Origin: Halobiforma lacisalsi AJ5
GTDB lineage: Archaea > Halobacteriota > Halobacteria > Halobacteriales > Natrialbaceae
Reading direction: 5' to 3'
Length of the DNA: 64,000 nucleotides
Assembly (NCBI RefSeq): GCF_000226975.2
Contig: NZ_CP019285.1
Span: forward strand, 2,914,001-2,978,000
The translations under genes and the position numbers were made by a program. Under the pieces are notes generated by a model that made no database searches, was not told the origin of the DNA, and was given only the letters and a program-made list of their open reading frames with translations. Every line of letters starts with the position of its first letter. The first letter of the stretch is position 1. Shown in pieces: positions 4,930 through 34,464 of this stretch.

Positions 4930-5613
4930 ATGAGAGTACCAGAACCCACGGATACTGGCCGTAGTCATCGAAAGCTTTGCGAAAAAGCGGCCAGATACTT
5001 CGAAGCCGACCGAGATACTGACACTCCCCGGCTCGAGCAGACGCCCAAGACGATCGAGCCGGGGACGATACTGTACCGGACCGACGCGGGCGTCCAGCAA
5101 ACGGAATCGCCGTCAAGAGCCGTCGACGCTCTGTTGTCGGAACTCACGTCGGAGATCGACGACGAGGCGGACGCCGTCGAGGTCTACGTTGGCACTCGAG
5201 CAACGGCGGGGAGACTCATCGAAGCAGTTTCCAGAACCGAGCTGTTCCGCAAGACAGTCGTCCGGATCTACGTCGAAGAGCAAGGGACGTACACGCGATA
5301 CGTTCCCCCATACATCGACAAAGAGTCGCGGCCGAGTCGGATCTACACAGCGACGCTCCAGTTGTTTATCGACGAGTTCCTCGCAGAGACAACGGATCGG
5401 ACGGAAGCAGTGCCACTGGAGGAACTCTACGAACAGTTCTGTTGTTGGTGTCGGAACGTCACCGCAACCGCTGTACCGAGCCGACCTGGCTTTGGTCGAC
5501 TCCTGGCCGCAGAAGGGCTCGAAACGGGTCCGCGAGGAGAAGACAGAACTCGCTACGTACTGAACTACACGATCGCACCACCGACCACGACCAGCACCGG
5601 TAACGAGCAGTAG
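4930..5613 (+). CDS. cassette gene 1: small relative of the two large paralogues
   Basis: A 227-residue protein of unknown function. Its C-terminal half (about residues 135-190: IYTATLQLFIDEFLAE, then VPLEELYEQFCCW and PSRPGFGRLL) matches in layout the C-terminal modules of the two large downstream proteins, which read YKRALETFLETYT...FERFLTWYDG and ASKAFVELVTV...LRRRFKAWYT. The module resembles the winged-helix tails of plasmid or virus replication proteins, where a helix is followed by FxxWY and a short second helix. It is first in a same-strand run with the gene at 5641 (27-bp gap), so co-transcription is likely. Confidence 0.65.
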   Translation: MRVPEPTDTGRSHRKLCEKAARYFEADRDTDTPRLEQTPKTIEPGTILYRTDAGVQQTESPSRAVDALLSELTSEIDDEADAVEVYVGTRATAGRLIEAVSRTELFRKTVVRIYVEEQGTYTRYVPPYIDKESRPSRIYTATLQLFIDEFLAETTDRTEAVPLEELYEQFCCWCRNVTATAVPSRPGFGRLLAAEGLETGPRGEDRTRYVLNYTIAPPTTTSTGNEQ

Positions 5614-5640
5614 CAACCGGCTCCACTCATCTCCACTTTT

Positions 5641-7809
5641 ATGATGCAACAGGTCAATCGAATGCCGGCGATCGACAGTATACCGGACGACCGGACTCCG
5701 GCGGTCGCGCGCCACGGTGCGATCCACTGTTGTCAAAGCGGCCTTGGTGAGTCGTCGCTTCGCCTTTCCGGGGCCCTTGCGGGACCGTTGTGCGAGGCGA
5801 TTACGAACGCGAGTACGGCCGTCCCGGAACTGGCCTCGGTCGAACTGCTCGTCCTGACGGGAGAACGAACGGCGACCCTCGTTGTTCACGGTAGCCAGAC
5901 AGCGGAACACAACACGGGCTGGCTGGCCGATGGTGCCGGTGAAGCCGGCTCCGGACGGACTGCCGGCGGAGACGAGCTGGCAGCGCTGCTGCAACGACGG
6001 CTTCCGGACTGGTACGGAATCGAGCGAGGGACCCTCGTACTCGATCTCATCGGTATCGCTGCCGCACCGACGAGTCGACTCGTCTACACGGACGAGCCAC
6101 CGTCGGGGTCGGCACTCGAGTCGCTGTTCCGGGAGATCGTCGCCCGGAATCACAAGCATAATATCCCGACGGTCGGTCAACTGCTCGTTCAACGGGAGTC
6201 GACGGACCGGTTTCGGGTGACCGCGCGCGTCGCCGACATCGGTCGGGCGGAACGACCGCTTGGCCGTCACGGACTCGCAGCGTCGCTCGACGCCTCACCC
6301 AGTTGTCCGATCGATCGCACCACGCCGGACGGGATCACCTCGAGTCGACGCCTGGCAGACGATTACTGGGAGCGGAACGTTCCACACAGCAGCCGATTTC
6401 CCGGGCTGATGACCAGCCCCGGGACCACGAACGCTTTAGCGGCGCTGATGTCGTTGGGGTTCCGGGACAGTACCCACGAGTATGCAGCACTGTTGCAGGG
6501 CCGGCCGGCAGCGGACCCCTACGAACCGTTTCCGGTCGACCCTACGTTGGCGCTGTCGACTGCCGAACTCGAAGCGATACTTGACGTGACGCCCCACTAC
6601 GAGACGTGTCGCTGGCCGGCGAAACCGACTCGCTTTGCCCCGCGATTCATCCGCGAGACCGTACGAACGCAAGCGGCCGGAACGGACCACGAGGAGCTTC
6701 TTCGCGGTCCACATCCCGCTATGACGGAACTCGGCGTCCAGACCGGCGGTTCGCTCAGGGCGTTTACCGGCGGCTGGCTCGAAGAGACCGGCTATCACGC
6801 TGAGACACTCGATGAGCGGTCGCGAGGCGATCCCCACTTCCGGGGCCACCCGAACGACGATGCCGACGACGGGCCTGTCGTGCTGGTCGATCCCAACGGC
6901 GAGAGTTCGGACCAGGTCGTTGGAACAGCGGGCGAACTCATCATGGCGGCAAACCGTGCGCTGCGAGAGGGGTCACATCTGCTGGTCGTTACACCTTCAC
7001 GGGAGACAGCCCAGTGGGCCCGTGACGTCCTCGAAGTCCCGTATGCGAGCCGCCGTACTCGCGACGTTCAGCAGGTGTACAGTATTCCCGCGTTCGTCTA
7101 CACTGGTGACGGCGACATCGTCGTTACCGAGCGCGAGTCGCAACCGCTGTACTGGACCGTCTCCGACGGACAGCGATCTCTGTACGTCGGTGATCGGTGC
7201 CTGGCGTCAGGGCCGGTCACAGCGCCGCTCTCGTCGTATACGTTCGAGACGCCACGGCTGACCAAGCGCGGGGACTCGATGATCGTATTGAACGACGATC
7301 GAAGCGTCCGTGAGCGGCGGCCGTCGCTGGCAGCGTGTGCGACCGACTATCGGGCTGTGCGTCGTCCAGTACTGCCGATCCAGCCGCTGTTCTGTACGGA
7401 CGTGACGGTCGCGTATCGGGCGGGGAGTTCGCTCGTCGAACCGATCCGCTCGCAACGCTGGGACGACGGGAGGACGCTGGAGTCTCGACGACGTCACTAC
7501 AAGCGCGCCCTCGAGACGTTCCTCGAGACGTACACGGTCGGCGTTTCCGCTCAGAGCAGCAGGACGGCCCCGCGGTTCTTCGAGCGCTTTCTGACCTGGT
7601 ACGACGGGCGGATCACGTGGCCGGTACCCACTCGGGACCGACTCTCCCGAGCGCTACCGAACTGGGTGCACGCTCGGACGGATACGAGAGAACCGGTCGT
7701 ACTGGAAAATCGCTCCTGGTGGCTTCCAGTTGCGGATCTCCCGCTCGCGATTGCTCACGGCCGGTCTTCGGATGCATCGGCTCACCACGACCGATCAGCG
7801 ACTGAGTGA
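5641..7809 (+). CDS. cassette gene 2: large paralogue lacking nuclease residues
   Basis: A 722-residue protein of unknown function, colinear with the 799-residue product of cassette gene 3. Shared landmarks in order are a TSRL...LLVQ block (about 140-200), HEYAALLQGRP (about 280), an alpha/beta block ending HLLVVTPSR (about 405-455), FETPRLTKRGDS (about 535-545), and the C-terminal helix with FERFLTWYDG (about 645). Where gene 3 has its acidic nuclease-like motif this protein reads VVLVDPNGESSDQV, so the metal-binding acids are gone. It may be a structural or regulatory partner. ATG codons at 5641 and 5644 are both possible starts. Confidence 0.7.
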   Translation: MMQQVNRMPAIDSIPDDRTPAVARHGAIHCCQSGLGESSLRLSGALAGPLCEAITNASTAVPELASVELLVLTGERTATLVVHGSQTAEHNTGWLADGAGEAGSGRTAGGDELAALLQRRLPDWYGIERGTLVLDLIGIAAAPTSRLVYTDEPPSGSALESLFREIVARNHKHNIPTVGQLLVQRESTDRFRVTARVADIGRAERPLGRHGLAASLDASPSCPIDRTTPDGITSSRRLADDYWERNVPHSSRFPGLMTSPGTTNALAALMSLGFRDSTHEYAALLQGRPAADPYEPFPVDPTLALSTAELEAILDVTPHYETCRWPAKPTRFAPRFIRETVRTQAAGTDHEELLRGPHPAMTELGVQTGGSLRAFTGGWLEETGYHAETLDERSRGDPHFRGHPNDDADDGPVVLVDPNGESSDQVVGTAGELIMAANRALREGSHLLVVTPSRETAQWARDVLEVPYASRRTRDVQQVYSIPAFVYTGDGDIVVTERESQPLYWTVSDGQRSLYVGDRCLASGPVTAPLSSYTFETPRLTKRGDSMIVLNDDRSVRERRPSLAACATDYRAVRRPVLPIQPLFCTDVTVAYRAGSSLVEPIRSQRWDDGRTLESRRRHYKRALETFLETYTVGVSAQSSRTAPRFFERFLTWYDGRITWPVPTRDRLSRALPNWVHARTDTREPVVLENRSWWLPVADLPLAIAHGRSSDASAHHDRSATE

Positions 7810-7821
7810 TCGACCACGACC

Positions 7822-8025
7822 ATGTCCATCCGCGATACCCCACGAACGGGATCGATCGAAGTGCTGGCCCCTCTGGTCCGAACGACCGGGCTGAGGGAAG
7901 CTACCGGCCTCTCCTCGAAACGCGGTCTCCAGGCCAGCCCACGACTCGGATCTCACTCTGGTCAGCGGGCGTGGCAGTCGTATCGAACGCCGATCAACGC
8001 TCCGAAAACAGAAGATCACAAATAA
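7822..8025 (+). CDS. possible small linker gene
   Basis: A 67-codon frame fills the gap between two large cassette genes; its TAA is immediately followed by the ATG of the next gene. The product is basic and Ser/Arg/Gly-rich, unlike neighbouring acidic proteins, and has no motif. It may simply be leader sequence of the following gene. Confidence 0.3.
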   Translation: MSIRDTPRTGSIEVLAPLVRTTGLREATGLSSKRGLQASPRLGSHSGQRAWQSYRTPINAPKTEDHK

Positions 8026-10425
8026 ATGCAATCACCTAACGGATCAATACGGTACATCGACAGTAACGACGACTTCCGGTACTGTCGGCCCAATGCAGTT
8101 CGCTTGATGTTCCCCGGCCATGCCGACGAGGATCGTCGACTAGACCGATTGCTGCAACTCGATGACGTCGCCGAGGACATCCTCGAGGAGTACGGTATCG
8201 ACATGCTCGAGCTCCTGACGTGGCCCGGAGAGGTCCAACAGGAGTATTTCCTCATCGGCCACAGTACGGAGATGACCCACACTCAGAGTCTCGAGGAACT
8301 GGACGACGAACCGCAGGAGTCTGATGCGGACGCCCCATCGGCTGCGCGTGAAAGCGAGACGACCCTTGACGCGTATACTGACGGTGGAGATGCCGACGAG
8401 GATGACGGCGGGGATCCCGAGGAGGCTGGTAGTGAGGATCCTGATGAGACAGATGGTGAATCGACGTCGGCTATCAGTTCCGAACAGCCGGTCTCGAGCG
8501 ACAGTGATGGAAAACGGGACACGCGAGCACAGCGGATCAAACAGATCGTCGACGACCACTTCGAGGGTGAAATCGGAACCCAGATCTGTACCATCGATCT
8601 CGCGCCGCTCGGGGAGATGCCGGTTCCGACGAGTCGCCTGCTGCAGCCGACGAACCTGTCGTTCGACCCCGTCGAAACGTCACAGAAGGCTGCGACGGTC
8701 GAACTCGTCACGACGCTCAACGAGGACCGCGTTCCGTTTGTCCACCAGTGTCTGTTAGAGCCGGCCGGCTCATCGAACCCGCACGACTTTCTTGTCTCGG
8801 CACGACTCGCGCCGTTTGGAACCGGGCACGGAATCGTCACCGAAGCCGACCTCGAAAAGCACCTCGCTGCGGACAACCAGTATCGGATCTCGGAGTACGT
8901 TCCGGGTCCAGCAACCGATAACTGGGCGCTGCCGATCAAACCACATCGACGATACGCCGACCAGCAGAGTACCCATCCGTCCAAACTCGAGCAACTCGAT
9001 GAGATGAGTCTCCGGGACGGGTCGATCGAGGAGGTTGCAGTGGGCTCCCCGGATTATCGGGCACTGCTTGCCGGCCGCGTCCACAACGATGATCGCTACG
9101 AGCAACTCTTCGGCGCTTATGGACGCATTCCGATTTCCAAAGCCGACTTGCCGCATTTCTTCACAGCGGTGCCCGCGTACTTCGAGGTGAGTTCGTTTGG
9201 CCAACTGACTACCACAGACGAACCGGAGATCACGACCGAAGAACTCGGCAGTGAAAGTCCGGGGACGCGACAGTCTTACGGGCTCGAACTACCCGGCGAT
9301 ACGACCGCAGTGACCGACGACTCCGATGAAGAGTCGGATCGTCACAAGGAATTGGTCAACAAACGAATCGAATTTTTGCTCCGTCACGGTCACGAGATCG
9401 TTGCCGTTGATCAGGACGTCATCGACGTGGATATTCCGGATCACGATCCGACGACGACGCAGTATCTTGACGGTGAATCCCGGCCGGATATCGTGAGCAA
9501 AACGGACGGCGTTGTCCACTTCCACGAAATCGAAGTCGCGAACAAGACGAAGCCGGCAGCGCTCATCACGAACCTCGCACGGGCTGCCTATCACGGCCAT
9601 CAGGTGCATATCGTCACTGAAACCCGCGCTGAGGCAAAGAGCAAGCTGTGGACGACGAATCCCGAGGCCAAAGAGGGCCCCGTCAGCATGCCGTTTAAGG
9701 ATACTGACGGAGAGTGGACGGTCCTGTACACCCAGCGCAAGGCTGTGCATCGAGCTGCTGACGATGTCTGGTATCTCCTTCCCCGCGAGTTGTCCGAAGC
9801 TACGTGGCGATTGACGCCCGACGACAGGTTGCAGTTGGTCGGCCCGGACGGCTCGATACTCGCCGAGGGCGACGCGGAACAGTCGGTTGATGCGTTCGAG
9901 TTCAATACGCCACGCGTCCGAAAGGAAGGGGACGAGTGGGTCCTCGAGTCGGCCTCCGGTGAAGTACTCCGGCGCCGATCCACGAAAGGTGCAGCCGCGA
10001 GCGGCTATTCGTTCATCCGGAAGCCACTCGTCCCGACGCGATTCGAGTACCTCGAGAACACGACCGTCGAATTCCAGTCGAACAACGGCTTCACCATCTT
10101 CGAAAAGCCGCCGCTGTGGGAGCAACCCCAGCAAAGCGCCTCGATTCGCTACGAGGAAGCGAGCAAAGCGTTCGTCGAGTTGGTCACAGTCGAACGTGAG
10201 GGGGCTGAGATTCCGATCCCCGAGCTGCGACGGCGGTTCAAGGCGTGGTATACGGAACAAACTGATCTCAAAGAGCCCAACGAAACGTGGTTCGGACGAG
10301 CGCTGCGGGCCTACTTCGAGGTCGATGCCACCGACGACCACAACAAGACGCTGGTCGACCGAAGGTTCCGGTTCTCGGAAGGGCTGGTGTCGCCGGATCT
10401 GTCGTTTATCGAGGATGAAGGCTGA
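8026..10425 (+). CDS. cassette gene 3: large paralogue with PD-(D/E)XK-like motif
   Basis: A 799-residue protein. An acidic, Ser-rich insert (about residues 95-165) separates a short N-terminal domain from a part colinear with cassette gene 2. A restriction-endonuclease-like core lies at about 445-535: RIEFLLRHGHEIVAV, then RPDIV (D488), then HEIEVANKTK (E501, E503), then a helix and HQVHIVTET. That order (helix, PD, ExE/ExK strand, helix, strand) suits a PD-(D/E)XK nuclease with Glu in place of Lys. The tail shares FNTPRVRKEGDE and a winged-helix-like end with its sibling. Nuclease activity is inferred from motif and fold order only. Confidence 0.7.
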   Translation: MQSPNGSIRYIDSNDDFRYCRPNAVRLMFPGHADEDRRLDRLLQLDDVAEDILEEYGIDMLELLTWPGEVQQEYFLIGHSTEMTHTQSLEELDDEPQESDADAPSAARESETTLDAYTDGGDADEDDGGDPEEAGSEDPDETDGESTSAISSEQPVSSDSDGKRDTRAQRIKQIVDDHFEGEIGTQICTIDLAPLGEMPVPTSRLLQPTNLSFDPVETSQKAATVELVTTLNEDRVPFVHQCLLEPAGSSNPHDFLVSARLAPFGTGHGIVTEADLEKHLAADNQYRISEYVPGPATDNWALPIKPHRRYADQQSTHPSKLEQLDEMSLRDGSIEEVAVGSPDYRALLAGRVHNDDRYEQLFGAYGRIPISKADLPHFFTAVPAYFEVSSFGQLTTTDEPEITTEELGSESPGTRQSYGLELPGDTTAVTDDSDEESDRHKELVNKRIEFLLRHGHEIVAVDQDVIDVDIPDHDPTTTQYLDGESRPDIVSKTDGVVHFHEIEVANKTKPAALITNLARAAYHGHQVHIVTETRAEAKSKLWTTNPEAKEGPVSMPFKDTDGEWTVLYTQRKAVHRAADDVWYLLPRELSEATWRLTPDDRLQLVGPDGSILAEGDAEQSVDAFEFNTPRVRKEGDEWVLESASGEVLRRRSTKGAAASGYSFIRKPLVPTRFEYLENTTVEFQSNNGFTIFEKPPLWEQPQQSASIRYEEASKAFVELVTVEREGAEIPIPELRRRFKAWYTEQTDLKEPNETWFGRALRAYFEVDATDDHNKTLVDRRFRFSEGLVSPDLSFIEDEG

Positions 10426-15971: not shown

Positions 15972-16114
15972 TGTCGGTGAACAATACGGCGCGCTTTGGA
16001 GCGTAATGAGCCTGTTCTTGCTGCCGACAGCCAGTTCGGGAATATCTCCGGAGTCACCCGTGAAAGCTACTGCTGATCAGGATTGACCTATTCGAGGGTG
16101 TCATAGAACTCTTC

Positions 16115-16742
16115 TCACACCGTGATGATGGTGCTTCCCGGATTGTCTCCGCGTTCATAGTTGGTGATGGCGACCACGAGGCGCAGACAGAGTGCGAGGA
16201 ACACCTGCGCTCGTGCGTGGACGCGGCCTCGGGCGTGCGTTCGCCCGAGGCCGCAGTCCTTGACTGATTCGTTGGTTCGTTCAACCCCCGTACGGCGGTT
16301 GTACGTCTCATCCAACGTGGATTGCTTCAGTTGAACGTCTTCGCTGTGTTCGTCGATGCGGTCTTCGACTCTGTACTCGATATCTTTCGGCTCGTCGGTG
16401 TTTCGCGCGTTGTACGGAGCGACTGGCACGACCCCTGCGGCCAGCAGGTGGTCGTGCCAGTCGAGCGTGTCGTAGGCGCTGTCTCCAAGCATCCAGATCG
16501 GTGTGGAGACGGCGAGCGCGTCACGCGTGACGCGCATCGCCGTCTCCTCTGGCGCTTGCTTACTCTCTGTGAACTCCGCCGCAATCGGGATCTTTTGTCC
16601 GGTCGAGACGATCGTACAGCCGTAGCCGTGGTAGTACTCGTCGTCGGTTGGATCGTAGCACTTCGACGCGTCTTGATCGGCAGGCATCGCCCTCACGTCA
16701 GTTGAATCGATGCAGTAAGTCAAGTCGAGCAGGCCGCGGCGG
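16115..16742 (-). pseudogene. ISH11-like transposase, 3' part
   Basis: Encodes the catalytic half of the transposase (from LLDLTYCIDSTD to the C-terminus), including all three DDE residues. It is separated from its 5' part by the IS630 fragment and would need a new start, for example at 16723. Identical in protein to the intact copy over this span. Confidence 0.85.
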
Positions 16743-17180
16743 AGCGACCGCTGGTTCGAATCGATGAACCAGCGGTCGGCTTCTATGCACTCAACGGCGA
16801 GAGCATCGTCTCATTCCCGGAAGATCAGACGAAAGAACGAATCTGCGACTGTCTCGAAAGGATACGCGAGCAGAATCCCGGCAAGCGGATTCTGCTCGTC
16901 TTGGACAATCTCTTCTCGCACACGTGCGAATACACGCGTAAGCGAGCGTCCCAACTCGGTATCGATCTCGTATTCTTGCCGGTTGGATCGCCAGACCTCA
17001 ACCCAATCGAATCGGTCTGGAAGAGTTTGAAGTGGGAAATATCTCCGCTAATCGTCGAGAGCGCGGAAGAGTTCCGCGCTCTCGTCAGTACTGTCTTCGA
17101 GAGATTGACTGCTCGTGTGAGCTTCGCTGGCAACTGGATCAAGCAGTTCCTCGACTTGCAAAAGTTATCTTGAGTACTAG
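16743..17180 (+). mobile_element. one-ended IS630-family fragment
   Basis: The plus-strand frame up to the stop at 17171-17173 encodes the C-terminal part of an IS630-type transposase: RILLVLDNLFSHTCEYTRKR, then LPVGSPDLNPIESVWKSLKW (second Asp and Glu of the DDE triad). The first catalytic Asp and N-terminus are absent. The right end TAGTACTCAAGATAACTTTT (read on the minus strand from 17180) looks like a genuine element end. The left junction at 16743 has no matching inverted repeat. Two or three G residues are shared at both junctions; ISH11-like sequence is otherwise uninterrupted. Confidence 0.75.
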
Positions 17181-17546
17181 GGCGGCCTGCTCGACGAGTC
17201 GGCCAAAGACCTCGTCAACGACGTGTTCGAGGTCGGTGAGAAAGCGATCGACCGCGTCTCTGGACGGCGGTCGATCGAACCCACAGCTGAGCCAAACAAC
17301 CGTGTTCCGAAGCTCTCGCTCAACCGGACGAATCCCGTAGATGTCCTTGTAGTAGCAGTGGAGGAAGCCACGCATCAACTCTGGTGGTTCATGCTCTCGT
17401 GTTCGCCCCGTCTGCGCCGGGGCGAACACGTCGAACTCTTCGAGAAACTCGAAGGAGAGGTGCTCGAACAACGCTAGCGTCTCGGTCTCCGCGACATTGA
17501 AGAACGACTCTACCGAAGGATCATCTTGCAGGGTCGCTGAGGCCAT
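17181..17546 (-). pseudogene. ISH11-like transposase, 5' part
   Basis: Encodes about the first 122 residues (MASATLQDDPSVESFF to RLVEQAA), identical to the intact copy, then runs into the IS630 fragment. It lacks every catalytic acid. It is the N-terminal DNA-binding part of a broken transposase. Confidence 0.85.
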
Positions 17547-17860
17547 ACCATCTCAGCATTCACCCTGCTCTTTGGTGTGGTAATCGTTCTATGACACCCT
17601 CCTATTCGGTAGTCCACTGACTGGTTACTGGCGAAAGGTGGGGGTACTGTCGTTGCTGACCATCATAGTACCACCCTCCAGTGACAGCTGTTGTCTACCG
17701 GTGGAGCAAGACTTTCTGTCCCTGAATGTGACCGCCGAGGACCACTCGAGAGACACCTACAGCTACCGATACCACGTTACCACCCGCATATCGCTTGGAA
17801 CTGGAGTCGTCCTACAGAGAGGTACCTCTCTCGAGGAGTGAGTTTCCGGCGTGGACAGCG

Positions 17861-18948: not shown

Positions 18949-19554
18949 TTACTCACCTCCGCCGGTGTTCTCTTCACCTTCGTCGTCCTCGATCGGCCGA
19001 TACTCGTGAGTCCGTCCGGAGGGCTCGTATCCCGGTACGTAGGTGAACTGGGAGTTCGGCTTGTCGTGAAACACGAAGGGAAGACGGCCCCGCTGTTCGC
19101 GGCCGGTCATCCGATACCGATACTCGAAGAGATCGTCCGAAGGTCCCAGCGCGTTCGGGGCTGGCAGATCGCCACGATGCAGGTCCTCGAGAGTGAGCAC
19201 ACGGACTTCCCACTTGCGGGCGATTTCCTCGGCGCGCTCGGTCAGTTCGGTCGTGTGACACAGGACCGGCATCGCACCGCAGGTAAAGGCGAGCATACAG
19301 AGTCGGAAGAGTTCGTCTTCCGTGACGAGGCGGCTGTCCCAGTCTTTGCACTCGGCGAGCAGCCAGTCGGTGGGCCGATCCCGTTTCTCCTTGCGCTGAG
19401 CGGCGACGTCGATCTCGAGGCCATACACGGAGACCCGCGTTGCGGCGCTGTAGCCCCACCGACGCATCGCCTGTTCGAGCTGGTATTCGAGCCAGCGCCC
19501 GTCGCCGTTCCCTCGTCCCTCCGTTTCCTCGCGCGGCGGGCCGTCGCTACTCAT
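18949..19554 (-). CDS. PD-(D/E)XK (Mrr/RecB-like) nuclease-like protein
   Basis: 201 residues. The core shows a helix (RWLEYQLEQAMRRWGYSAAT), then D49 (GLEIDVAA), then E68-x-K70 (LLAECKDWD), then a helix and a strand (GAMPVLCH): the D...ExK layout of restriction-endonuclease-like folds. The C-terminal 60 residues are acidic and variable. Its start overlaps the stop of the upstream gene by 8 bp, so translation is probably coupled. It is the only member of this operon with a predicted catalytic site; DNA is the likely substrate. Confidence 0.75.
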   Translation of the reverse strand: MSSDGPPREETEGRGNGDGRWLEYQLEQAMRRWGYSAATRVSVYGLEIDVAAQRKEKRDRPTDWLLAECKDWDSRLVTEDELFRLCMLAFTCGAMPVLCHTTELTERAEEIARKWEVRVLTLEDLHRGDLPAPNALGPSDDLFEYRYRMTGREQRGRLPFVFHDKPNSQFTYVPGYEPSGRTHEYRPIEDDEGEENTGGGE

Positions 19555-23860: not shown

Positions 23861-26308
23861 ATGACTGACGACGCCGACCCGCAGGCCGTCGCGGAGGCGA
23901 CCACTTCGTTCCTCGCGGACCGCGACGACGGGGAACAGGCGCTCGAGGCCGTCTTCGAGGTCGACGTGGCGTCGGAGACGTGGACGTTCGACGATGTGGC
24001 ACTCAATTCCGGGACGTTCAGGGAGCTGATTTCTCGCGGAATCGTGGAGAAGGCCGACGGCGAGTATCGGGTGGCGGACATCGAGACGGTGAGGGCCGTC
24101 CTCGCCGGGGAAGAGGTTACGTCGATGGGAGCAACGGACCGCGGATTTGCCCTCGACTACGAAGTCGATCTCCGGGCGCTCTCGGCGCTGGTCGGCGCAT
24201 TGGTTGTCGTCGCCGTGGCTCGCATGCTCTCCTACGGGAGCGTCTTTCAGCGCGGGTACGTCGTGTCGCCGGGGAACGATCCCTACTACTTTCGCTACTG
24301 GCTGGAAGATCGACTTACCGAGTCGTCGGGGCTGACGGATTAAGGCGTGTTCGTGGATGCACCGCACGGTATCTCGGGGCGGCGTCCGGCCACGCACGCG
24401 ACCAACTGGTTTTTCGCCGAGTTGCTCGGCGGTGGGCAGGGAGCGGCCGATACGGTCGCTGCGTGGCTGCCCGTCGTCGCGTCGGTCGCGCTCGGACTGC
24501 TGATCTACAAGCTCGCCGTGTTGCTCACGCGAGACGTGCGCGTCGGTGTAGCATCGGTACTCGTCTTCGCCGTGATGCCCGTCAATGCGGTGTACACGAG
24601 CCTCGGTTTCCTTGATCACAATCTGCATCAGTACTTCTGGCTCGGAGTGACGCTGCTGTCGCTGGGCTGGCTTGCCGTCGATCTACAACGGCAGTCCGTA
24701 GGCGGCAACGGCGGACAGGACCACGATTGTGTCTATGGGCATCTTCGAGCACCTGCGACGTGGGTCGTCGCTATCGTCTTCGGAATCTCGGTCGCCGCCG
24801 GTACGCACGCCTGGGGCGGTTCGCCGTTACTGCTGATTCCTCTTGCTGGCTATATCGCGTTGCGGGCTGCGATGGACGCTCGAGAAAACATCTCTCCGGT
24901 CCTCGCGGCGCTTCCCGTCCTTGGCGGCCTGCTTATCGGAAGTACGATCTCGATCGCGTTGAACGTCCGCTGGGGCTGGCACGCGCAGTTCGTCTCGATG
25001 ACGCCCGCGATGGTGTTGGCCGGCGGGCTCGTTGTGACAGCTGCCGGGGAGTTATGGCGCCGGCTCGAGATCCACCTCGGCGGGTTGCTGGCCGTCGAGG
25101 CGCTCGTCGCGGTCGCCGGGTTGTACGCCTTCCGTCGGTTGCGTCCCGAAGACTAGCTGGAAGCCAGGTCGTGGATCGACGATCTGATCGCTCGAGACTT
25201 CGCGACCGAAACCGGGTCGCTGTTCTCGACGGAGTACGCCGTCTTCTTCGGACCGCTGTACCAGCTCGGCGTCGGCTTCTACCTCGGCCTGGCCGTGCTC
25301 GGATTCGTCGCCTGGGTCGTGTATCGGCGGTACGAACCCGGCTGGCTGCTCGTCGGGACCTACGTCGGGTATCTCCTCGTGCTGGCCGGCATTCAGGTAC
25401 GGTTCGCCGGGCAACTCGCGATTCCGCTCGCGATTCTGGGCGGCTTCGGCGTCGTCTACGTGCTCTCGGCGGTGGACCTGGCGTGACGGCCAGCGTTGCT
25501 TCGCGGCACGTCGCCGACGGGTAACCGTGCGGGCGCGCCATCAGTCGCCTCCGACGGCGGGCAACTCGAGCCCTCGATCTCGCTGCCGGATCGACGGGCG
25601 ACGGTCTACGTCGTCGGGATCGGACTGCTGGTGTTCGGACTCAGCTTGGTCTACGTACCTAGCCTGATCGCCGATACTACTTACAGCGATGGGGAAGTGG
25701 CGGCGCTCGAGGCGATCGACGAGCACGCCGCAGCGAACGAGCGGGCGTATCCGGAGAATTATGTGCTGAGCGAATGGGGCGACAGCCGGATGTACAATCA
25801 CTTCGTGAACGGGGAGTCAGAGAGGTACGGCTACGCGCAAAGTAATTATGAGGAGTTCATCACGGATTCTGATGCCGACAGCTGGTACGACCAGTTCGAG
25901 GGTCGCGTCGGCTACGTCGTCGTGACCAGCGTTGATAGCGAGATGCCGGCCGAGAGAACGTACTCGCAGTTGTTTGACGAGTATGGTGCTGGTGGGAACG
26001 AAACAGATGGCGTCGCACACTATCAGACGCTTTTCGTTGACGACGACGTTGTCGCATATGCAGTTGTTCCCGGTGCAACCCTCGAAGTGTCTGGCAAGTC
26101 GGGTGAGGAAGTGTCTCTCGAGATGGAGGTATCTGTGTCCGGCGAATCGTTCATGTACGTGCGCCAGACCGTTATTGGCGACAATGGGCAAGGAACAGTG
26201 ACTGTTCCCTATGGTGGTGAGTACTCGGTCGGCAACAAGACGGTAACTGTTACCGAGGAGGATGTGCTAACCGGGCAGGCGGTTACTGTCGCAAAGAACA
26301 GTTCATGA
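23861..26308 (+). pseudogene. aglB: aglB-like oligosaccharyltransferase with three in-frame stops
   Basis: One continuous frame of 815 codons is colinear with the intact 824-residue AglB-type protein at 53320-55794, apart from stops at 24341 (TAA), 25154 (TAG) and 25484 (TGA). No frameshift separates the pieces. Conserved features remain: the N-terminal domain (ETWTFDDVALNSGTF), the first loop motif SPGNDPYYFRYW, many membrane segments, and the WGDSRMYNHFVNGE motif equivalent to the STT3 WWDYG region. At the second stop the intact gene has Trp (RPEDW), and at the third probably Arg (DLAR). Most likely a recently silenced copy; readthrough or reinitiation is possible but unsupported. Confidence 0.85.
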
Positions 26309-26516
26309 CCAGGAGTGATCGGGCGCTCGAGTGGATGATAAACTGGTTAGAAGCGCACGCGGCTATGAGGTTAGGTGTAGCTTCGAGGACTCTTTGACCC
26401 ATGCCCAGTCGAAAATTCAACTATATAATTAAATACAACAACAAACAAGGTAATTATAATACAGATATTATTGTTGGGGTAGGAATTCCTCTTAAACTAG
26501 AATAGCTGTTGAATGG

Positions 26517-28028
26517 CTATCGGGCAATTTCAACCAATGTAGTTATATACTTCTCAATTGAGTTTGGAAGCTGTTGGATAATTTTATTAACTTCGCTTTT
26601 GTGAATTATTTCGAATTTGATCATCAAGGTTGCGTAGACCATAAATCCAATGGGGGGAACAATTAATAGAGAAAGAAGAGATGAGTCAATTACTGAGGAA
26701 ACACCGAAAATAACTACGCCGGCGATCATGGCAACAGTTGTAATCCTCCAAAATCGAAGATCAGCTATCGGATTATAGCCTATTTGTCGTGCTGCATATA
26801 TATGGAGGATCATCATAGAACCATAGCCAATACTTGTTGCGATTGCAGCACCTACCATTTCATATCGAGGAATAAGTAAGATATTTAGACAAAGATTCAC
26901 TAACGCGGCAGTTCCAGTTGCTACAATTAAGATCGGAAGTTCTCCTTTCCCTTGACCTACTGCGAATATCGGGCGAGCAAGTGAAAATCCAATGACACCT
27001 GGAAGCAGGAGAAGGAGCGGAAGGACGACTGGTTCAAATTCGGATCCAAAATAAAAGGGAACAAAATCGTCAGCAAGTACTGCGAGGCCAATCGCGAGTA
27101 AGATAACAAGTGAGAGATTATGCCGAGTTATTTGGGAAACCATCATTGTAATTCGATCTGTCCGCCCTTTTGCCCAAAGTTCTGATGTAGAATGTAAGAG
27201 AACCATCTGCAGTGCGTTAGGAACAAACCATAGGAACTCGGCAATGGTGAGCGCAGCACGGTAATACCCGGTAGCTTCGCTACCGGCTAGTGGCCTTAAC
27301 AGGAGAATATCAATATGGTATAGCGAAGAAGTGAGTAATATCAGAATGACACTGAGACCATTAAATGAGAGTAATTCTTGTTTTGGAAAGTCAGGAGGGG
27401 TTTTATCGAAAATTTTCCTAAGGTTGATTCGATTGGATAATATTCTAAATGCTAGAAATGAAACAGTGAGACTAGCAATGACATGACCTGTGAGAATACC
27501 GACAACTCCATGTCCAAAATAAGTAAGTGAGAGTCCTATAAGAGCAAAGATTACTTTTCTCAGTATATTAAGCGGTTCACTTTGGTTTTCGAATCCAAGT
27601 CCCATTAGTCCTCCACGAGCAAGCGAGTACGTTTGACGGATTATGATTAAACTACTGAGAAGATAAAAATAGACGGTAAATTCTGGACTGAACAATTGTT
27701 TGGAGAAACCTGCCCATGAGAAAACAGCATAGATGATGGACACAAATATTGCTAGTCCAAACGCAATACGGAGATAAAATCCAAAGACATATTCGGTCCA
27801 ATTCGGGTGATCTCTTTCCTCTGCAATGTACTTTCGCATTCCATCGAAAATTCCCGCATTAGCGAGAACCATGGTGACTCCTAAAACGGAAAGGAGGAAC
27901 GCGTAATCGCCGTATTGGGCGCTACCAAGTAAGCGGACGAGAATGGGTGTTGTTAGTAACCCAATGAGGAGTACAGTGACTTTTGCTCCAAGGATTGAGA
28001 TGAATCCTCGGAGCACATTCGTTCGCAT
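26517..28028 (-). CDS. Wzx-type polysaccharide/lipid-linked glycan flippase
   Basis: 503 residues with about 12-14 hydrophobic segments across the whole length, the size and pattern of MATE/MVF-superfamily flippases. The opening GFISILGAKVTVLLIGLLTT and the ATGYYRAALTIAEFLWFVPN region are typical of the polysaccharide biosynthesis protein family. It would move the lipid-linked glycan to the outer face. Its 12-bp distance from the methyltransferase gene upstream suggests one transcript. The gene is clearly AT-richer than the flanking regions. Confidence 0.85.
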   Translation of the reverse strand: MRTNVLRGFISILGAKVTVLLIGLLTTPILVRLLGSAQYGDYAFLLSVLGVTMVLANAGIFDGMRKYIAEERDHPNWTEYVFGFYLRIAFGLAIFVSIIYAVFSWAGFSKQLFSPEFTVYFYLLSSLIIIRQTYSLARGGLMGLGFENQSEPLNILRKVIFALIGLSLTYFGHGVVGILTGHVIASLTVSFLAFRILSNRINLRKIFDKTPPDFPKQELLSFNGLSVILILLTSSLYHIDILLLRPLAGSEATGYYRAALTIAEFLWFVPNALQMVLLHSTSELWAKGRTDRITMMVSQITRHNLSLVILLAIGLAVLADDFVPFYFGSEFEPVVLPLLLLLPGVIGFSLARPIFAVGQGKGELPILIVATGTAALVNLCLNILLIPRYEMVGAAIATSIGYGSMMILHIYAARQIGYNPIADLRFWRITTVAMIAGVVIFGVSSVIDSSLLSLLIVPPIGFMVYATLMIKFEIIHKSEVNKIIQQLPNSIEKYITTLVEIAR

Positions 28029-28040
28029 TCTCCTTTACAG

Positions 28041-28874
28041 CTATCTCGACGCTCGTAAAAAGAATTCGCTTCCGCGTGAGGAAATCTTGGTAACATCGAA
28101 TCCAGATTCCTCAAGGAATACATGCACCTCAGATGCGCTATCTCCGAATTTAGGAAGTTTCTCTGGATGGACCTCAATATATGCGAGCCGAACATGATTT
28201 CGGAACGTCTCACTTAAACCACGGAGTACTAACATCTCTGCACCTTCGACATCAATCTTCATGACCGTTGGATTCGGCAGTCCGTGTCGGTCAATTATTG
28301 TATCACCTCGAGCCATCTTAACTTCGATCGTTTCTGTCTCTTGGTCGGTAGCAATCATGTGCTCGCCTTCTCCCGCTTCGTTACCTGAAAGTGATAGATC
28401 AATTGTTCCATCAGAATCTGAGAGAGCTATATCTATAACATTGGCATCAGTATTATTTAATTTGATATTCTCACGTAGCCTATCTACATTCTGTGGTTCC
28501 GGTTCGAAGGCGACAATCTGTCCTGGTCCGAGTTTTGAGGCAATAAAACAGGTATAGGTGCCGACGTTCGCACCTACATCGTAAACTATGTCATCTGGCT
28601 CAAGAGAGCAGAGTAAATCCTCTAAGATCGATTCTTCCCCAGAAAGATCGCGAAAACGAATAAACTCAGTATAATTATTAATCTTGAATTTTGCCGTTTG
28701 GTTTGAAACTGTATATCCCTGTATATTGTTTGAAAGTCGATAAACTAACTTCCAGTATGGGCCTGAAAGATAATTATTAAGGCCTGTATGTCGAACTGCT
28801 TGACGGAGATGGCCTCTATAAATCCTGTCCCTCGCTTTACGTAGCAATGACCCTAAATTCAAAAATTTGGTCAT
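28041..28874 (-). CDS. FkbM-family methyltransferase
   Basis: 277 residues from ATG 28874. The SAM-binding motif VYDVGANVGTYT (about 98-109), acidic end of strand 2 (VAFEPEP) and the family motif MKIDVEGAEMLVLRGL near residue 210 identify a class I, FkbM-type O-methyltransferase. In glycan clusters these methylate sugar hydroxyls. The first 40 residues are basic and may contact a membrane or partner. The sugar acceptor cannot be deduced. Confidence 0.85.
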   Translation of the reverse strand: MTKFLNLGSLLRKARDRIYRGHLRQAVRHTGLNNYLSGPYWKLVYRLSNNIQGYTVSNQTAKFKINNYTEFIRFRDLSGEESILEDLLCSLEPDDIVYDVGANVGTYTCFIASKLGPGQIVAFEPEPQNVDRLRENIKLNNTDANVIDIALSDSDGTIDLSLSGNEAGEGEHMIATDQETETIEVKMARGDTIIDRHGLPNPTVMKIDVEGAEMLVLRGLSETFRNHVRLAYIEVHPEKLPKFGDSASEVHVFLEESGFDVTKISSRGSEFFLRASR

Positions 28875-28964
28875 AGTTATTCGGATATCAACCAACACTC
28901 ATCAGTTAATCGTTTTGCTCTTGAATTGAAGCCATCATAACCCCTGCACATCAGAACACAAACA

Positions 28965-29858
28965 CTAAAAGTATTGATAAATGGGTTTAATCATATCCCT
29001 CAGAGCCGGGTATTGTTTTAATTTTTTATCTATATGGTGTACAATAATAATTTTCCAATTATAATCCTTAGGTTGATAATCGTGATAGGGGGTTTTACTT
29101 AAATAGTCCCACCAATCTTGTTTGAATGGACGAACAGTTCTGTAATACCAAGGCTTGTTACCTCCAGTAAAATGAACTATTTTCGGGTCCAGTTCGTGGT
29201 CACTTTCATCATATTTCTCTATCCATTCTTGCATCATGTTGTATTTTGGGTGAAATGTTTTCCAAAACCCTTCTTCATGAATGATCTCATTCAATATCTT
29301 TTGGAGCGGCAATCGCATGTTATGGTTTTCTTCAATATATTCAAGGCATTTTTCTTCGATCTCACATTCCCTCCATTTTTCCAAGTTGATTAACATCACT
29401 CCTGTATTATACCATAAATTATCAATCGATAATCCTTCAAAAGGGGAAATGAGTTCTAAATGAGGCACAGCTCCAATCATAGCTCCCTCCAATTCTTTAT
29501 TCATCAGATCACCAATTGAACTAACTATTAATGTATCACAATCAATGTATAGAACTTTATTTATATCCTCTGGCAGTAGTGTACCTAATAGTATCCGGTA
29601 GTAAATACCTTTAGTCAAATGCCTTGGTTCAGGATAATCAGCAAACAGATCGTCATTTATAGTAATATAATTTATATTTATGCCGCCGTGAACATCGTGT
29701 AAATAATCAATATTCTCGTCAAACATTTCATTTTTCTCATTACATATTATATATATGTTAGCATTTATCGATCTATTATTTTCCAATAAAGAGTATATTG
29801 AATTATATAACGGGATCCAATAATTTTCATCAGTTGCATATACTATGTTCTTGGTCAT
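28965..29858 (-). CDS. glycosyltransferase family 8
   Basis: 297 residues with the GT8 landmarks: NIVYATDENYW at the N-terminus (nucleotide-sugar binding), the metal-binding DxD at D106/D108 (LYIDCDTL), YNTGVMLINL, and HFTGGNKPWYY near residue 230. GT8 enzymes are retaining transferases that use UDP-glucose or UDP-galactose. The gene is strongly AT-rich (many AAT, ATA, TTA codons), unlike haloarchaeal genes and a sign of transfer. It is cytoplasmic and would extend the lipid-linked glycan. Confidence 0.85.
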   Translation of the reverse strand: MTKNIVYATDENYWIPLYNSIYSLLENNRSINANIYIICNEKNEMFDENIDYLHDVHGGININYITINDDLFADYPEPRHLTKGIYYRILLGTLLPEDINKVLYIDCDTLIVSSIGDLMNKELEGAMIGAVPHLELISPFEGLSIDNLWYNTGVMLINLEKWRECEIEEKCLEYIEENHNMRLPLQKILNEIIHEEGFWKTFHPKYNMMQEWIEKYDESDHELDPKIVHFTGGNKPWYYRTVRPFKQDWWDYLSKTPYHDYQPKDYNWKIIIVHHIDKKLKQYPALRDMIKPIYQYF

Positions 29859-29899
29859 TTCTTATGCTGCATACAAGTGATTCAAAAGTACTTCGTTGT

Positions 29900-30360
29900 A
29901 ACGGATCCACTTTCACTCTATTGGATCGTCTAGTTAGGGCGGTTGAGAACCGAGCAAGTCGTAGAGTCTTGGACATGCAACTCACAGGCCTGCTCAACGG
30001 GTCTTACGCGACGAATTTAGGAGAATTTATGCTCATGGTTGATTCTTAATGCAATGGTTGGACGACGAAGCGCCGATCCTGCCGCTGAATTTGTTCACAG
30101 ATTAACCGAGATAGACGATCTCTCCGAGGTGTGATTTTCATCGAATGCTACGGCTATCGGCCTGCTCCCTCGACCCGGACTGAGCTTGACCATGTCGAGA
30201 GACCTGATTGAAAGTGGTTTCATACTCTCAAAATACGGATCGACCATCCTTGTGGGTGGCCAATTGGGCCAGCGGCAGAGAAACAGTTCCTACACTACTA
30301 CAAGACACAATCATCATATAGTGCTAAATTAGACAGCGCCCTGAAGGGAGTTTTACTTTA
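29900..30360 (+). pseudogene. decayed transposase-like sequence
   Basis: Translated pieces in different plus-strand frames resemble one transposase: RLVRAVENRASRRVLDMQLT near 29930, then KWFHTLKIRIDHPCGWP and KQFLHYYKTQ near 30210-30310. The last two echo the end of rve-type transposases (TLKMRID...FxHYYNxQRPHQ). Stops and shifts separate them, so nothing is functional. Confidence is limited because the pieces are short. Confidence 0.4.
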
Positions 30361-30396
30361 AGATAGCCAACTCCGAACTCACTTCCGACCTATAAG

Positions 30397-31722
30397 TCAA
30401 ACTTTGGAATCTTTTCGAACACTGGCATGGACAGTAGTTGCCCATATAGTAACAAATAGCGTAATAATGCGCTGGTTATAAACTATCTGATCTGTGATAC
30501 CATATAATATTGCAGCTGCTACCAGCCCAATTGAAACTGACGCGAGTAATTTATCTATAGAATCCCCATTACCATTTCCGTGTAATACTAACGTGGATCT
30601 TCGCACAATCGCTGCATAAAAGAGTGTGAAAACAAAAGCGCCACTAATCCCATATCGAAATATAATTGAAATCCATTCACCATCAGTTCCTCCAAACTCT
30701 TTGAAATATAACCAATTTGGCCCATGACCTATAAAATAGGTTACTGTGTTACTTTCAAAATTTCTAAATAGATCCCTCCAAATTTCGAAGCGAATTCCTA
30801 GTGTAGAGAGATCACGAACTTGGAGCAATACATTATATCTATTCGGGAGAAATCCGAAGTATAGGAGTAGGGTAAACAAGATAATTCCGAAGATTACGAA
30901 AAATAGTATCTTTCCAATCCCTTCATTTTCAGAATAGAACATTAATGCAAATGATATAGCTAAGGCTGCAATAAGAGCAATTAATCCCGTTCGTGACTGC
31001 GTGAATACTAATGTGAAAAAACCAACCATTGTTGTAAATATACACAAACAAACGAGCCATGAGTTATAATTCCTATTGTAGTAATGGTGATAAAGGAGTG
31101 AGGTTGAAATTACTATTCCAGGAACTAGCAAAATCGCAAACCTATTTGGATTTACAGCTGTTCCAAAAATACGTGTTTGATTAATAAGGGTATCCACATG
31201 GACTCCTGCGTAATATCTTACAAAAGGAACTGCCTCTGGACCTAGGTAAAGAATAAGACCGGATTGAATCAGACTTAGTAGTGATGCCAAAAGCGTGAAT
31301 AAAACAATTAATAATGTTATATGGTAACGGTGGCGAGGTTCCTCTGTCAAATAATAAATAAAAACAATTATTGCAATTATTCTTAGCGGGTGTAATAATT
31401 CAGTTACTGACTGGGGTGCAACTGGAATATTGAGGAACACTGATTGATATACCATACATATACTAATAAATATTATAAAGGGGACCAAATACAGGGCTAA
31501 TCGTGGAACGACAAGATGGGAGTATGAAAACTGTACTGGTAAGGCTATACCCGCGAGAAATAGTAGTATAATTAGATCTTCAGGGCGGAAAACTGAGAGG
31601 ACTGGTATAAAAAATACTAGCCCTAAAAATAATAATTTAATGTTATAGGATATAGTTTCATTTAAGTATTTTTCTGAGTTATGTTCCGAAACTTCCATTG
31701 AATTATCTTTTCTCATAAACAT
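30397..31722 (-). CDS. O-antigen ligase/polymerase-type membrane protein (Wzy-like)
   Basis: 441 residues with roughly 10-12 membrane segments and a large loop (about 150-200 and 320-360). TQSRTGLIALIAALA is the conserved signature of the O-antigen ligase/Wzy superfamily, and the loop GHGPNWLYFKEFGGTDGEWI is characteristic of the later periplasmic loop. It could polymerise repeat units or transfer glycan to a lipid or protein. It overlaps the upstream glycosyltransferase gene by 10 bp. AT-rich. Confidence 0.8.
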   Translation of the reverse strand: MFMRKDNSMEVSEHNSEKYLNETISYNIKLLFLGLVFFIPVLSVFRPEDLIILLFLAGIALPVQFSYSHLVVPRLALYLVPFIIFISICMVYQSVFLNIPVAPQSVTELLHPLRIIAIIVFIYYLTEEPRHRYHITLLIVLFTLLASLLSLIQSGLILYLGPEAVPFVRYYAGVHVDTLINQTRIFGTAVNPNRFAILLVPGIVISTSLLYHHYYNRNYNSWLVCLCIFTTMVGFFTLVFTQSRTGLIALIAALAISFALMFYSENEGIGKILFFVIFGIILFTLLLYFGFLPNRYNVLLQVRDLSTLGIRFEIWRDLFRNFESNTVTYFIGHGPNWLYFKEFGGTDGEWISIIFRYGISGAFVFTLFYAAIVRRSTLVLHGNGNGDSIDKLLASVSIGLVAAAILYGITDQIVYNQRIITLFVTIWATTVHASVRKDSKV

Positions 31723-32816
31723 TCTTTTAGTAATTCTTCATACTTTTGAACTGCGCGTTCAATAGTAAATTCAGTAGCACGTTCGTGAAGTCTGGCGTAG
31801 TTCTCTGAATTCTTAAGAGAATTAGATATTGCATTTGCGAGTGCTATTTCATCACCAACAGGAACCAATGTACCATAAGTCCCACCGTCCAGGACTTCTG
31901 ATGGGCCATACGGACAATCAGTTGATACTACTGGTGTACCTGTCCCCAATGCTTCAATTAGCACTAGAGATAATCCCTCTATTTTCGAAGATAATACAAA
32001 TAGATCAGAGTGATACATATAATCAAATGGGTCCTTGATAAATCCAGGCATCCATATATGCTCAGACACCCCTAACTGGTCTGCTAGATCTTTATACTTT
32101 TCTGTAAGTTCTCCTTCTCCTAATAAGACTAATCGCGCATTATGTTCTGGCGGCAGTTTAGCAAATGATTTTATTAATGTTGTATAGTCCTTTTGTTCAA
32201 CATGCCTCCCTGCACTCATTATAGTGGAGACATTCTCATTTCTAAACCAAGGATGTGCTGGCTGATCATAATCCTTCCCAATAAACTCTTTTTCGAAAAC
32301 AGGATTATAAATCGTCTTAACTTCAGTTTGCGGAAGGTTCGCCCATTTACACACATCTTTTGTGGTCCCCTTAGAGACACCAACAATATGGTCTGCATAT
32401 TTATAAGTTATCTGTGCCAAAATCCGATCTCGCTTCGCTGTTAATGAATTTTTCTTTGATAGCGTTGTATGCTCTGTGACCAAAGTGACAGCTGGATCAC
32501 CAGCTATTTTGTTCGCTATGATTGATAGGATATTAGCTTGAGTCATAATAGATATTATTGTATCTGGCTTAGTGCTGTGTATATAACGAACTAGAGATTG
32601 TAAACTCCACCGAGCTCTTTCTACACCAAGGTCTACAGTATTTACTCTGTTAGGTATATCTTCTACCATCTTCCCCTGCCTATTTAATAAAACCATATCT
32701 ACATCGTAACCTAAATCGGAAAACCCTTTAGATAAATTGATTGCAACCCTCTCTGCACCACCAATAGCAAGGTTTCCAATGAATATGGTTATCTTTATGT
32801 TTGATTTCTTTTCCAT
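31713..32816 (-). CDS. glycosyltransferase family 4
   Basis: 367 residues with a GT-B fold. The N-terminal half has NLAIGGAERVAINLSKGFSD; the C-terminal half has ARLVLLGEGELTEKYKDLAD and the donor-site EGLSLVLIEALGTGTPVVS (the EX7E motif of retaining GT4 enzymes). Acts in the cytoplasm on a lipid-linked glycan; donor unknown. First gene of the pair with the Wzy-like protein. AT-rich. Confidence 0.88.
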   Translation of the reverse strand: MEKKSNIKITIFIGNLAIGGAERVAINLSKGFSDLGYDVDMVLLNRQGKMVEDIPNRVNTVDLGVERARWSLQSLVRYIHSTKPDTIISIMTQANILSIIANKIAGDPAVTLVTEHTTLSKKNSLTAKRDRILAQITYKYADHIVGVSKGTTKDVCKWANLPQTEVKTIYNPVFEKEFIGKDYDQPAHPWFRNENVSTIMSAGRHVEQKDYTTLIKSFAKLPPEHNARLVLLGEGELTEKYKDLADQLGVSEHIWMPGFIKDPFDYMYHSDLFVLSSKIEGLSLVLIEALGTGTPVVSTDCPYGPSEVLDGGTYGTLVPVGDEIALANAISNSLKNSENYARLHERATEFTIERAVQKYEELLKECL

Positions 32817-33336
32817 TATTGGATCAACCTAATTTTATAGAAGTACACGTTCTATTGGGTATTGAACTCTTCAAATACTGCTATCTGCCTGGTAACCTAT
32901 TATTGTTTGGGTTCTGAGATAGCATTCTACATCTGGATTGAGTCGACGATATTGTCGTAACTTGCTTAACGTCGAATTCAGGCACTGTTTAGTTCTGGAC
33001 CTCTCAACAGGTTTTCCGTTGGAGTTTGAACGTTCGCCCTACTTTTCCCATGAATTATGAATCTGGTCGATATTCATTTGAGAATGTGTAGTACCATACA
33101 GTCAAGACCATTCGCCCTTGATCTCGTTAGTGGTTTCATCAACGAACCTACCGTCGGTATTGCCATCTGCGAATCGCGTTCGCTGTTACCAACTCATGGA
33201 TCTAGTTCAAACCATTCGTAAAAACATTCAATGTTCTAAATCCACTGTATCGTTGTCGCTGAGCTGGTCTGGGATCATCAATTAAGTTAACTTCGCTACT
33301 CAGTCTATTGAATTGGATAGTATATTCAATAATGAT
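32817..33336 (-). pseudogene. non-coding stretch with possible transposase debris
   Basis: No intact frame. On the minus strand near 33106-33180 a short translated piece reads RFADGNTDGRFVDETTNEIK followed by GEWS, which resembles the catalytic VDET...GEW region of haloarchaeal IS6-like transposases. The remaining sequence is not alignable by eye. It may be the relic that brought in one of the flanking glycosyltransferase genes. Confidence 0.28.
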
Positions 33337-34464
33337 CTATACAACTGATTGGAATAGTTTATGGGTGTCTTTAACTGTTTTTTCCCAGGAAAAGTCCCGT
33401 GCCCGATGTTTTCCATCTTTAGCTAACTGTTCTTGTAGTTCTTCACTTGTGAGTATTTTCTCAAGACTTTTCATGAGATCTGTTGGATCATCTGGATCAA
33501 ATAGAAGTGCTGCGTCGTCAACGATCTCAGGAATAGCACTTGTTCTTGAAGCTATTACCGGGGTTTCCGCAGCCATTGATTCCACTAATGGATGTCCAAA
33601 GGTCTCTAGTTTTGAAGGTAATACTGAGACAGTAGCATGAGAAAACAGATATGGTATAGCTTGGTAATCTATGCGACCTAAAAAGACGATATCATCCCCA
33701 ATACCATGTTCCTGAACCAAATCCATTAATGAATTGAAATATGACGGTTTTGGTGTGCCTCCAGCAATAACAAGTGGGTGTTTTTTTTGCAGATCCGTCG
33801 GAAGTTTGGCAAAGCCGTTAATTAGGGCTTCGTAGTTTTTATGAGGATATATCGTCGATACACATAATATATACCCAGGTTCTTTATTAGCTATGTTTTT
33901 CACCTTGTCATCTTGTGGCACAATAGGCTCAGAAAACATATCTACATCAATACCGTGGTATATTAAGGTACACTTTTCAGAATCAATGTCAATAGATGAT
34001 TGTACGAGGTTCTGGAAATATTCAGATACAAAGATTACTTTAGATGATCGACGAGCAGATAATTTAGCGAGACTACGGTGTACGAGATGCCTCAACTGAA
34101 GCTTTAGACTTCGTGACCGATCTACTGCATATGGATTCGGATTTCGGAATGCAATAATGGTTGGACATGGTGATATCAGTGTTGTAATATCTGTGGGTGA
34201 ATATAAAATATCAATATTATATTTTTGTAAATGTAAGGGAAAAAGCAACTGCTCATATAGTAGGCGTAGTAGAATAAAATTCACTGGAAATTTTATTTCT
34301 ATATATTCTATATTACCTTCATCTATTTCAGGGATATCTGACTGGTTACTAGAAACAAAAATGTAATATTGGTCATCTGTCTCTGCCAGTCGAGGAAGTA
34401 CATTTTTTAAATAGGTTGTACCTCCCCCCCTATTGAATGGTAGTCCGTTGACTGCTATATTCAT
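33337..34464 (-). CDS. glycosyltransferase family 4
   Basis: 375 residues, GT-B fold. Starts MNIAVNGLPFNRGGGTTYLK (acceptor/donor loop with GGG), and contains GYILCVSTIYPHKNYEALI and the donor-site stretch LETFGHPLVESMAAETPVIA with two glutamates in the EX7E arrangement, then TSAIPEIVDDAALLFDPDDP. The last motif is common in mannosyl- and rhamnosyl-type enzymes, but the donor cannot be named. Cytoplasmic. Confidence 0.88.
   Translation of the reverse strand: MNIAVNGLPFNRGGGTTYLKNVLPRLAETDDQYYIFVSSNQSDIPEIDEGNIEYIEIKFPVNFILLRLLYEQLLFPLHLQKYNIDILYSPTDITTLISPCPTIIAFRNPNPYAVDRSRSLKLQLRHLVHRSLAKLSARRSSKVIFVSEYFQNLVQSSIDIDSEKCTLIYHGIDVDMFSEPIVPQDDKVKNIANKEPGYILCVSTIYPHKNYEALINGFAKLPTDLQKKHPLVIAGGTPKPSYFNSLMDLVQEHGIGDDIVFLGRIDYQAIPYLFSHATVSVLPSKLETFGHPLVESMAAETPVIASRTSAIPEIVDDAALLFDPDDPTDLMKSLEKILTSEELQEQLAKDGKHRARDFSWEKTVKDTHKLFQSVV

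Follow-up and report, generated by a model that had tools for sequence, protein, structure and literature searches.

Archaeal conjugative elements have been reported to lack recognisable relaxases (PMC3158045, PMC9905601). The N-terminal domains (NTDs) of VirB4 pair protomers and also contact VirB3, a small protein with two transmembrane (TM) helices that is encoded beside virB4 (PMC12857230). Haloarchaea possess coupling ATPases of 1000–1560 aa, annotated as 'type IV secretory system conjugative DNA transfer family protein' or as 'primase-like DNA-binding domain-containing protein', which are single proteins with a Walker A core, occur on plasmids and within operons for conjugation, and end in a nuclease-like and winged-helix tail with a PD...ExE signature. 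Other systems suitable for comparison are the heterodimeric nicking restriction endonuclease BspD6I, which has two unlike subunits that are both catalytic and act on one strand each, the winged helices of RFX proteins and of the C-termini of poxvirus D5 and phage primases, and the MOB relaxases.

We compared with these systems a cassette of three genes, S, T, and N, that lies in a window of 64,000 nucleotides from Halobiforma lacisalsi AJ5 (Table 1). The cassette is present in a single copy, on the 4.16-Mb main contig of this three-contig haloarchaeal genome. N and T resemble the nuclease-tailed coupling ATPases in a homologous tail and, more remotely, in the front half, but they have no motor, were found on genome contigs alone and in no plasmid record, and form twins of which one is active and the other inactive. 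The front half of N and T has a fold like that of the R388 VirB4/TrwK NTD (Z ~11, predicted model), whereas the domain that follows it is nuclease-like instead of an ATPase domain. BspD6I has a nuclease fold like that of N, although kinship in sequence was not detected. The C-terminal winged helices of N, T, and S are like those of D5, phage primases, and RFX, but no primase or helicase is attached to them. A nicking role at transfer is possibly common to the pair and the MOB relaxases, whose fold is different and to which no homology was found.

No curated family was reached by S, T, or N in Pfam, NCBIfam, or PADLOC, and the system protein models of PADLOC 2.0.0 matched neither these proteins nor the divergent neighbouring open reading frame. 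Searches of Pfam and NCBIfam revealed no known relaxase domain, no relative by sequence was found in the PDB, and the open PMC papers searched gave no description of the pair or of a nuclease-tailed coupling ATPase. A sequence-only reading of this DNA had placed three plus-strand open reading frames here and supposed an undescribed system; the frames are where it placed them, and no described family matches. The N/T pair of the cassette is real, undescribed, and co-inherited, and it consists of a nuclease and a pseudonuclease that are kin to conjugation ATPases.

Table 1. Features of the cassette and its divergent neighbour (nucleotide positions in the window).
Feature	Position	Strand	Description
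Divergent neighbour gene, 266 aa	3940..4740	-	N-terminal half winged-helix-like; two membrane helices in the C-terminal part
S, 227 aa	4930..5613	+	Small relative that starts with a weak, degenerate nuclease-like part and ends in a D5/primase-type winged helix
T, 722 aa	5641..7809	+	Motif-less twin
T residues 16-351	5686..6693	+	VirB4/TrwK NTD-like part (VIA, predicted model)
T residues 372-465	6754..7035	+	Degenerate nuclease-like domain without catalytic acids
N, 799 aa	8026..10425	+	Active-type twin
N residues 20-432	8083..9321	+	Front half, homologous to that of T by hhalign
N residues 83-164			Low-confidence acidic linker in the predicted model
N residues 437-541	9334..9648	+	Restriction-endonuclease-like core (VIA)
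N residues 486-519	9481..9582	+	RPD...HEIEV...K...N..R motif: D488, E501, E503, K509, N516, R519
N residues 703-783	10132..10374	+	RFX/D5-type winged helix (712-783 in the model)

T and N had been proposed to be colinear paralogues, and BLASTP and profile matches confirm this proposal. The blocks that it quoted are present in both proteins (HEYAALLQGRP at residue 279 and FETPRLTKRGD at 535 of T, and PDYRALLAGRV at 342 and FNTPRVRKEGD at 626 of N). BLASTP aligns the two over 626 residues (E 3e-16), and when they are compared as profiles with hhalign, the front halves match at E 3e-39 and the back halves at E 2e-38. The PD...ExE signature is confined to N, where RPD at 486 and HEIEV at 500 yield D488, E501, and E503, whereas T reads VDPNGESSDQV at 416. 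This is a PD-(D/E)XK signature in which E replaces K, and a lysine six residues further on (K509) is found in 26 of the 29 active-clade rows. When homologues were checked, all three acids proved to be conserved in the active clade, where D488, E501, E503, N516, and R519 are invariant in 29 of 29 rows; columns 488, 501, and 503 are scattered in all 22 motif-less T rows. The catalytic residues of N are strictly kept across members of 17%–95% identity.

The tree of 51 rows has a single split, which separates the active clade (29 rows) from the motif-less clade (22 rows), and the internal branching order matches between the two. The distance matrices of N and T correlate at 0.96 across the 21 loci in which both members are comparable and at 0.82 when the comparison is confined to nine divergent loci; in each case, none of 5000 permutations reached the observed value. 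The dN/dS values are 0.18–0.33 for T and 0.15–0.29 for N; T is under purifying selection and is therefore no pseudogene. Three loci (L055, L057, and L059) have, in the partner's place, a motif-less relative of only 330–350 aa, and decayed loci exist in which N is fragmented (L042) or interrupted by an insertion sequence (IS; L055). Together, the fold, the invariant acids, the two clades, the co-divergence, and the purifying selection strongly support the active/inactive nuclease pair that had been supposed. Judged by their sequences, N and T are ancient co-inherited paralogues, of which N alone has the conserved PD-(D/E)xE nuclease site.

Foldseek found no significant match in the PDB for the predicted models of N (pLDDT 74) or T (pLDDT 79.5, pTM 0.81), and the fold assignments rest for this reason on VIA alignments and the models. 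In the N model, residues 437-541 form a restriction-endonuclease-like alpha-beta core that covers the region where such a fold had been expected (445-535), and further strands extend to residue 695. This PD-(D/E)XK-type core reaches VIA Z scores of up to 8.5 over 82–117 residues, and the top rows are nearly all of the same fold, including XisH-type proteins (8.5 and 8.2), AF1548 (8.0), the R.BspD6I small subunit (7.7), and Hjc (~6). The winged helix of N matches the RFX DNA-binding domain 1dp7 (Z 8.2, 70 residues). The front half of T, as modelled, matches the VirB4 N-terminal domain fold, with Z scores of 10.4–11.0 to R388 TrwK/VirB4 chains (224–232 residues, rmsd 4.7–5.6) and of 9.2–10.3 to ESX-3 chains, while rows below the secretion-system chains score <5. 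Sequence profiles did not link the front half of N and T with haloarchaeal VirB4 itself, and the C-terminal P-loop ATPase of VirB4 type is absent from both proteins. The degenerate domain of T (372-465) shows an alpha/beta pattern in the predicted model. The start codon of N (8026) is uncertain, and conservation of N starts at about residue 20.

The nuclease pair of the sequence-only reading stands, but that reading had overlooked that N and T are kin to conjugation ATPases, and this kinship determines their likely function. Elsewhere among haloarchaea, and also in further lineages of the phylum, the N profile finds large proteins that end in the same nuclease and winged helix. Their Pfam matches identify them as coupling ATPases (TrwB_AAD_bind, T4SS-DNA_transf, TraG-D_C, and Pox_D5, PF03288), the Pox_D5 match falling on the module equivalent to the winged helix of N, and their genes adjoin VirB4 or TrbL genes. 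By hhalign, the coupling-ATPase tail matches the back half of N at E 1e-24 and that of T at E 2e-11, hmmsearch gives E values down to 5e-26, and most of the aligned tails keep PD and ExE. The front halves of N and T and the coupling-ATPase front give two collinear remote matches, which score 29.4 and 27.0 against 20.0 for the best of 30 column shuffles. A Walker A motif is absent from every N and T and occurs once in each coupling ATPase examined. The profile matches show homology between the nuclease/winged-helix half of N and T and the tail that archaeal conjugation coupling ATPases carry, and they reveal a remote collinearity of the two fronts. N and T thus resemble coupling ATPases that have no motor. 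On the simplest reading, such a motorless relative was duplicated and one of the two copies then silenced, although this direction of change is unproven. We consider this kinship and the paired-nuclease part of our explanation, taken together, to be quite probable.

Haloarchaeal coupling ATPases with a C-terminal PD...ExE nuclease-like domain and a winged helix were seen at L091-L097, L107, L109, and L122 and among hits H1-H30. Another family of the same phylum, outside the class group of the window genome, has shorter coupling ATPases (L100-L104, 830–937 aa) with a related ExE tail, a free-standing copy of which occurs at L104:2-376. The window genome's own coupling ATPase, located on contig C2 (L121:4366-8496), has a nuclease-like tail of its own kind (D...EAE), similar in general appearance but not reached by the N profile.

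As had been noticed from the sequence, S shares the C-terminal module of the larger proteins: the family profile matches S at residues 117-203 (E 1.4e-6), and S also matches phrog_1156, a phage-primase C-terminus (E 1.3e-6). The earlier description of a three-gene unit is only partly accurate, as the N/T pair forms the conserved core but S, which lies upstream of the pair in the window and in L032, L039, L040, L041, and L042, is absent from that place in several close relatives (L034, L035, and L037). S is an accessory protein. The same description overlooked the divergent winged-helix/two-TM gene that is conserved beside the pair. Homologues of this gene (32%–100% identity) divergently adjoin the pair in six loci, and five more loci have unrelated-looking neighbours of the same plan, HTH-like with TM segments. 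The divergent gene gave no family match, and roughly half of the loci lack a candidate for the membrane anchor. The product of the divergent gene is a candidate membrane anchor or regulator, and the parallel with VirB4 and VirB3 suggests, by analogy, a membrane dock for N and T.

Orc1/Cdc6 genes lie within 10 kb of 11 of the 33 pair loci, more often than expected (~1e-6 by a simple density model without island control, computed with 207 Orc1/Cdc6 genes, a count of about 203 leaving the result unchanged), and this closeness could reflect a mobile-element role. The loci sit in islands with toxin-antitoxin genes and IS. When 118 neighbour proteins were compared with PADLOC, most of the matches were TnpB/Cas12f-like and a few were of other kinds, and thus a defence island is not evident. 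Upstream of the cassette, no conserved origin-like repeat or palindromic DNA was found, and the only shared stretch is a 55-nt block in L034, L035, and L037.

A separate three-gene unit recurs within ~10 kb of the pair and encodes a protein of ~81 aa, an Mrr-like nuclease of ~217 aa, and a winged-helix protein of ~920–950 aa (L034:15658-19317, with equivalents in L036, L037, L049, L051, and L054); the window contains the first gene only (18949-19554). Elsewhere in the window, there is a surface polysaccharide cluster at 26000-42000 (flippase, heparinase-like, dehydrogenase, and glycosyltransferase-like open reading frames), GC content falls to 0.35 at 26-36 kb compared with 0.55–0.65 around it, and an AglB-like gene is located at 53320-55794.

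The cassette does lie between two insertion sequences, as the sequence-only reading stated, but these are incidental. Two 100%-identical inverted copies occupy ~1682-2750 and 16095-17608 of the window, and the right copy is interrupted by ~440 bp and has an 8-bp target duplication, CCTATTCG. In Halobiforma haloterrestris, the nearest named carrier, the same cassette is present in the same 13 kb while the right-hand site is empty, which rules out a composite transposon. Given the target duplication and the empty site in this relative, the flanking copies are recent.

N-like matches were obtained in 29 of the 391 genomes of the class, four of which represent coupling-ATPase fragments or unclear cases, leaving ~25 genomes and 33 loci. 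Alignment-based collection scans used a nine-row close set, as the multi-row alignment was too divergent. The cassette also has carriers in Halorubrum (H. coriense and H. ezzemoulense among them), Halovenus, and Natrialba. The pair is chromosomal in that the plasmid collection contains none of four N subfamilies, apart from one match that falls on a coupling ATPase; the nuclease-tailed ATPase was matched on 69 PLSDB plasmids, all typed 'non-mobilizable'. N was not found in phages or in viral contigs (IMG/VR), and a viral origin was rejected, with nothing in either of these sources and nothing clear in BFVD. A coupling ATPase is present in 15 of the 25 pair-carrying genomes and in 254 of the 366 others (p 0.37), so that co-occurrence with the pair shows no association, and the nearest one lies ~50 kb from the cassette. 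Defence, plasmid maintenance, and a mobile element had been offered as roles; the absence from plasmid records weakens the plasmid-borne role.

We propose that N and T would be joined by their VirB4-like front domains, just as the NTDs pair the protomers of VirB4, and that these domains would also attach the complex to the membrane, where the neighbouring protein with its two helices is the probable dock. DNA would be bound by the winged helices and cut or nicked by the single active site, in N, while T would serve to position and restrain. As a host-side barrier, the complex would recognise the DNA or the machinery of conjugative elements via the parts shared with their coupling ATPase and would cleave the transferred DNA. 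We infer this role with a probability of roughly 0.4, which is also our figure for the explanation as a whole. A barrier is favoured over mobilisation, restriction, and regulation because the pair is found off plasmids (69 of which carry the nuclease-tailed ATPase), phages, and viral contigs, and also because no coupling ATPase is nearby or associated with it at the genome level. It is doubtful that a motorless conjugation-ATPase relative acts as dedicated anti-conjugation immunity and that, in addition, the nuclease tail of the ATPases replaces the missing archaeal relaxase.

The main rival to the barrier is mobilisation, in which the pair would be a relaxase substitute for integrated plasmid-derived islands, nicking DNA at a site read by the winged helix and passing it via the VirB4-like domain to the type IV secretion machine of another element. 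The nuclease tail held in common with coupling ATPases, the VirB4-like front, the lack of recognisable relaxases in archaeal conjugative elements (PMC3158045, PMC9905601), the Orc1/Cdc6 enrichment near the loci, and the one active site per pair, which suits nicking, are consistent with such a nickase. However, the pair is on no plasmid record searched, unlike the nuclease-tailed ATPases, a coupling ATPase went undetected in 10 of the 25 genomes and is distant from the cassette, and the upstream DNA has no conserved origin-like repeat; we therefore regard mobilisation as rather unlikely. We also think it unlikely that the pair is a heteromeric restriction-like nuclease against viruses or any foreign DNA, with the conjugation-type domains as scaffold only. 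Patchy spread (~25 of 391 genomes), islands with toxin-antitoxin genes and IS, and the structural likeness to BspD6I speak for general restriction, but no methyltransferase or modification reader was recognised beside the pair, a PADLOC match is absent, and plain restriction needs no VirB4-like front half. A regulator or maintenance module that binds DNA and controls island replication or expression, its nuclease activity being minor, would agree with the winged helices of N, T, and S, the D5/primase-type match of S, and the Orc1/Cdc6 neighbours; the strict retention of all catalytic residues makes such a module improbable.

The N/T pair, which we tentatively read as a barrier, may serve to control or to process DNA that passes from cell to cell. 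The nuclease and winged-helix tail of the coupling ATPases is a candidate for the missing archaeal relaxase function, the start of DNA processing. The pair in the window is this tail module without the motor, doubled and with one copy silenced, and it connects the machinery of conjugation with a new, putative nuclease of two subunits. Whether hosts turn parts of transfer against transfer is a question that this pair opens to a clear genetic test.
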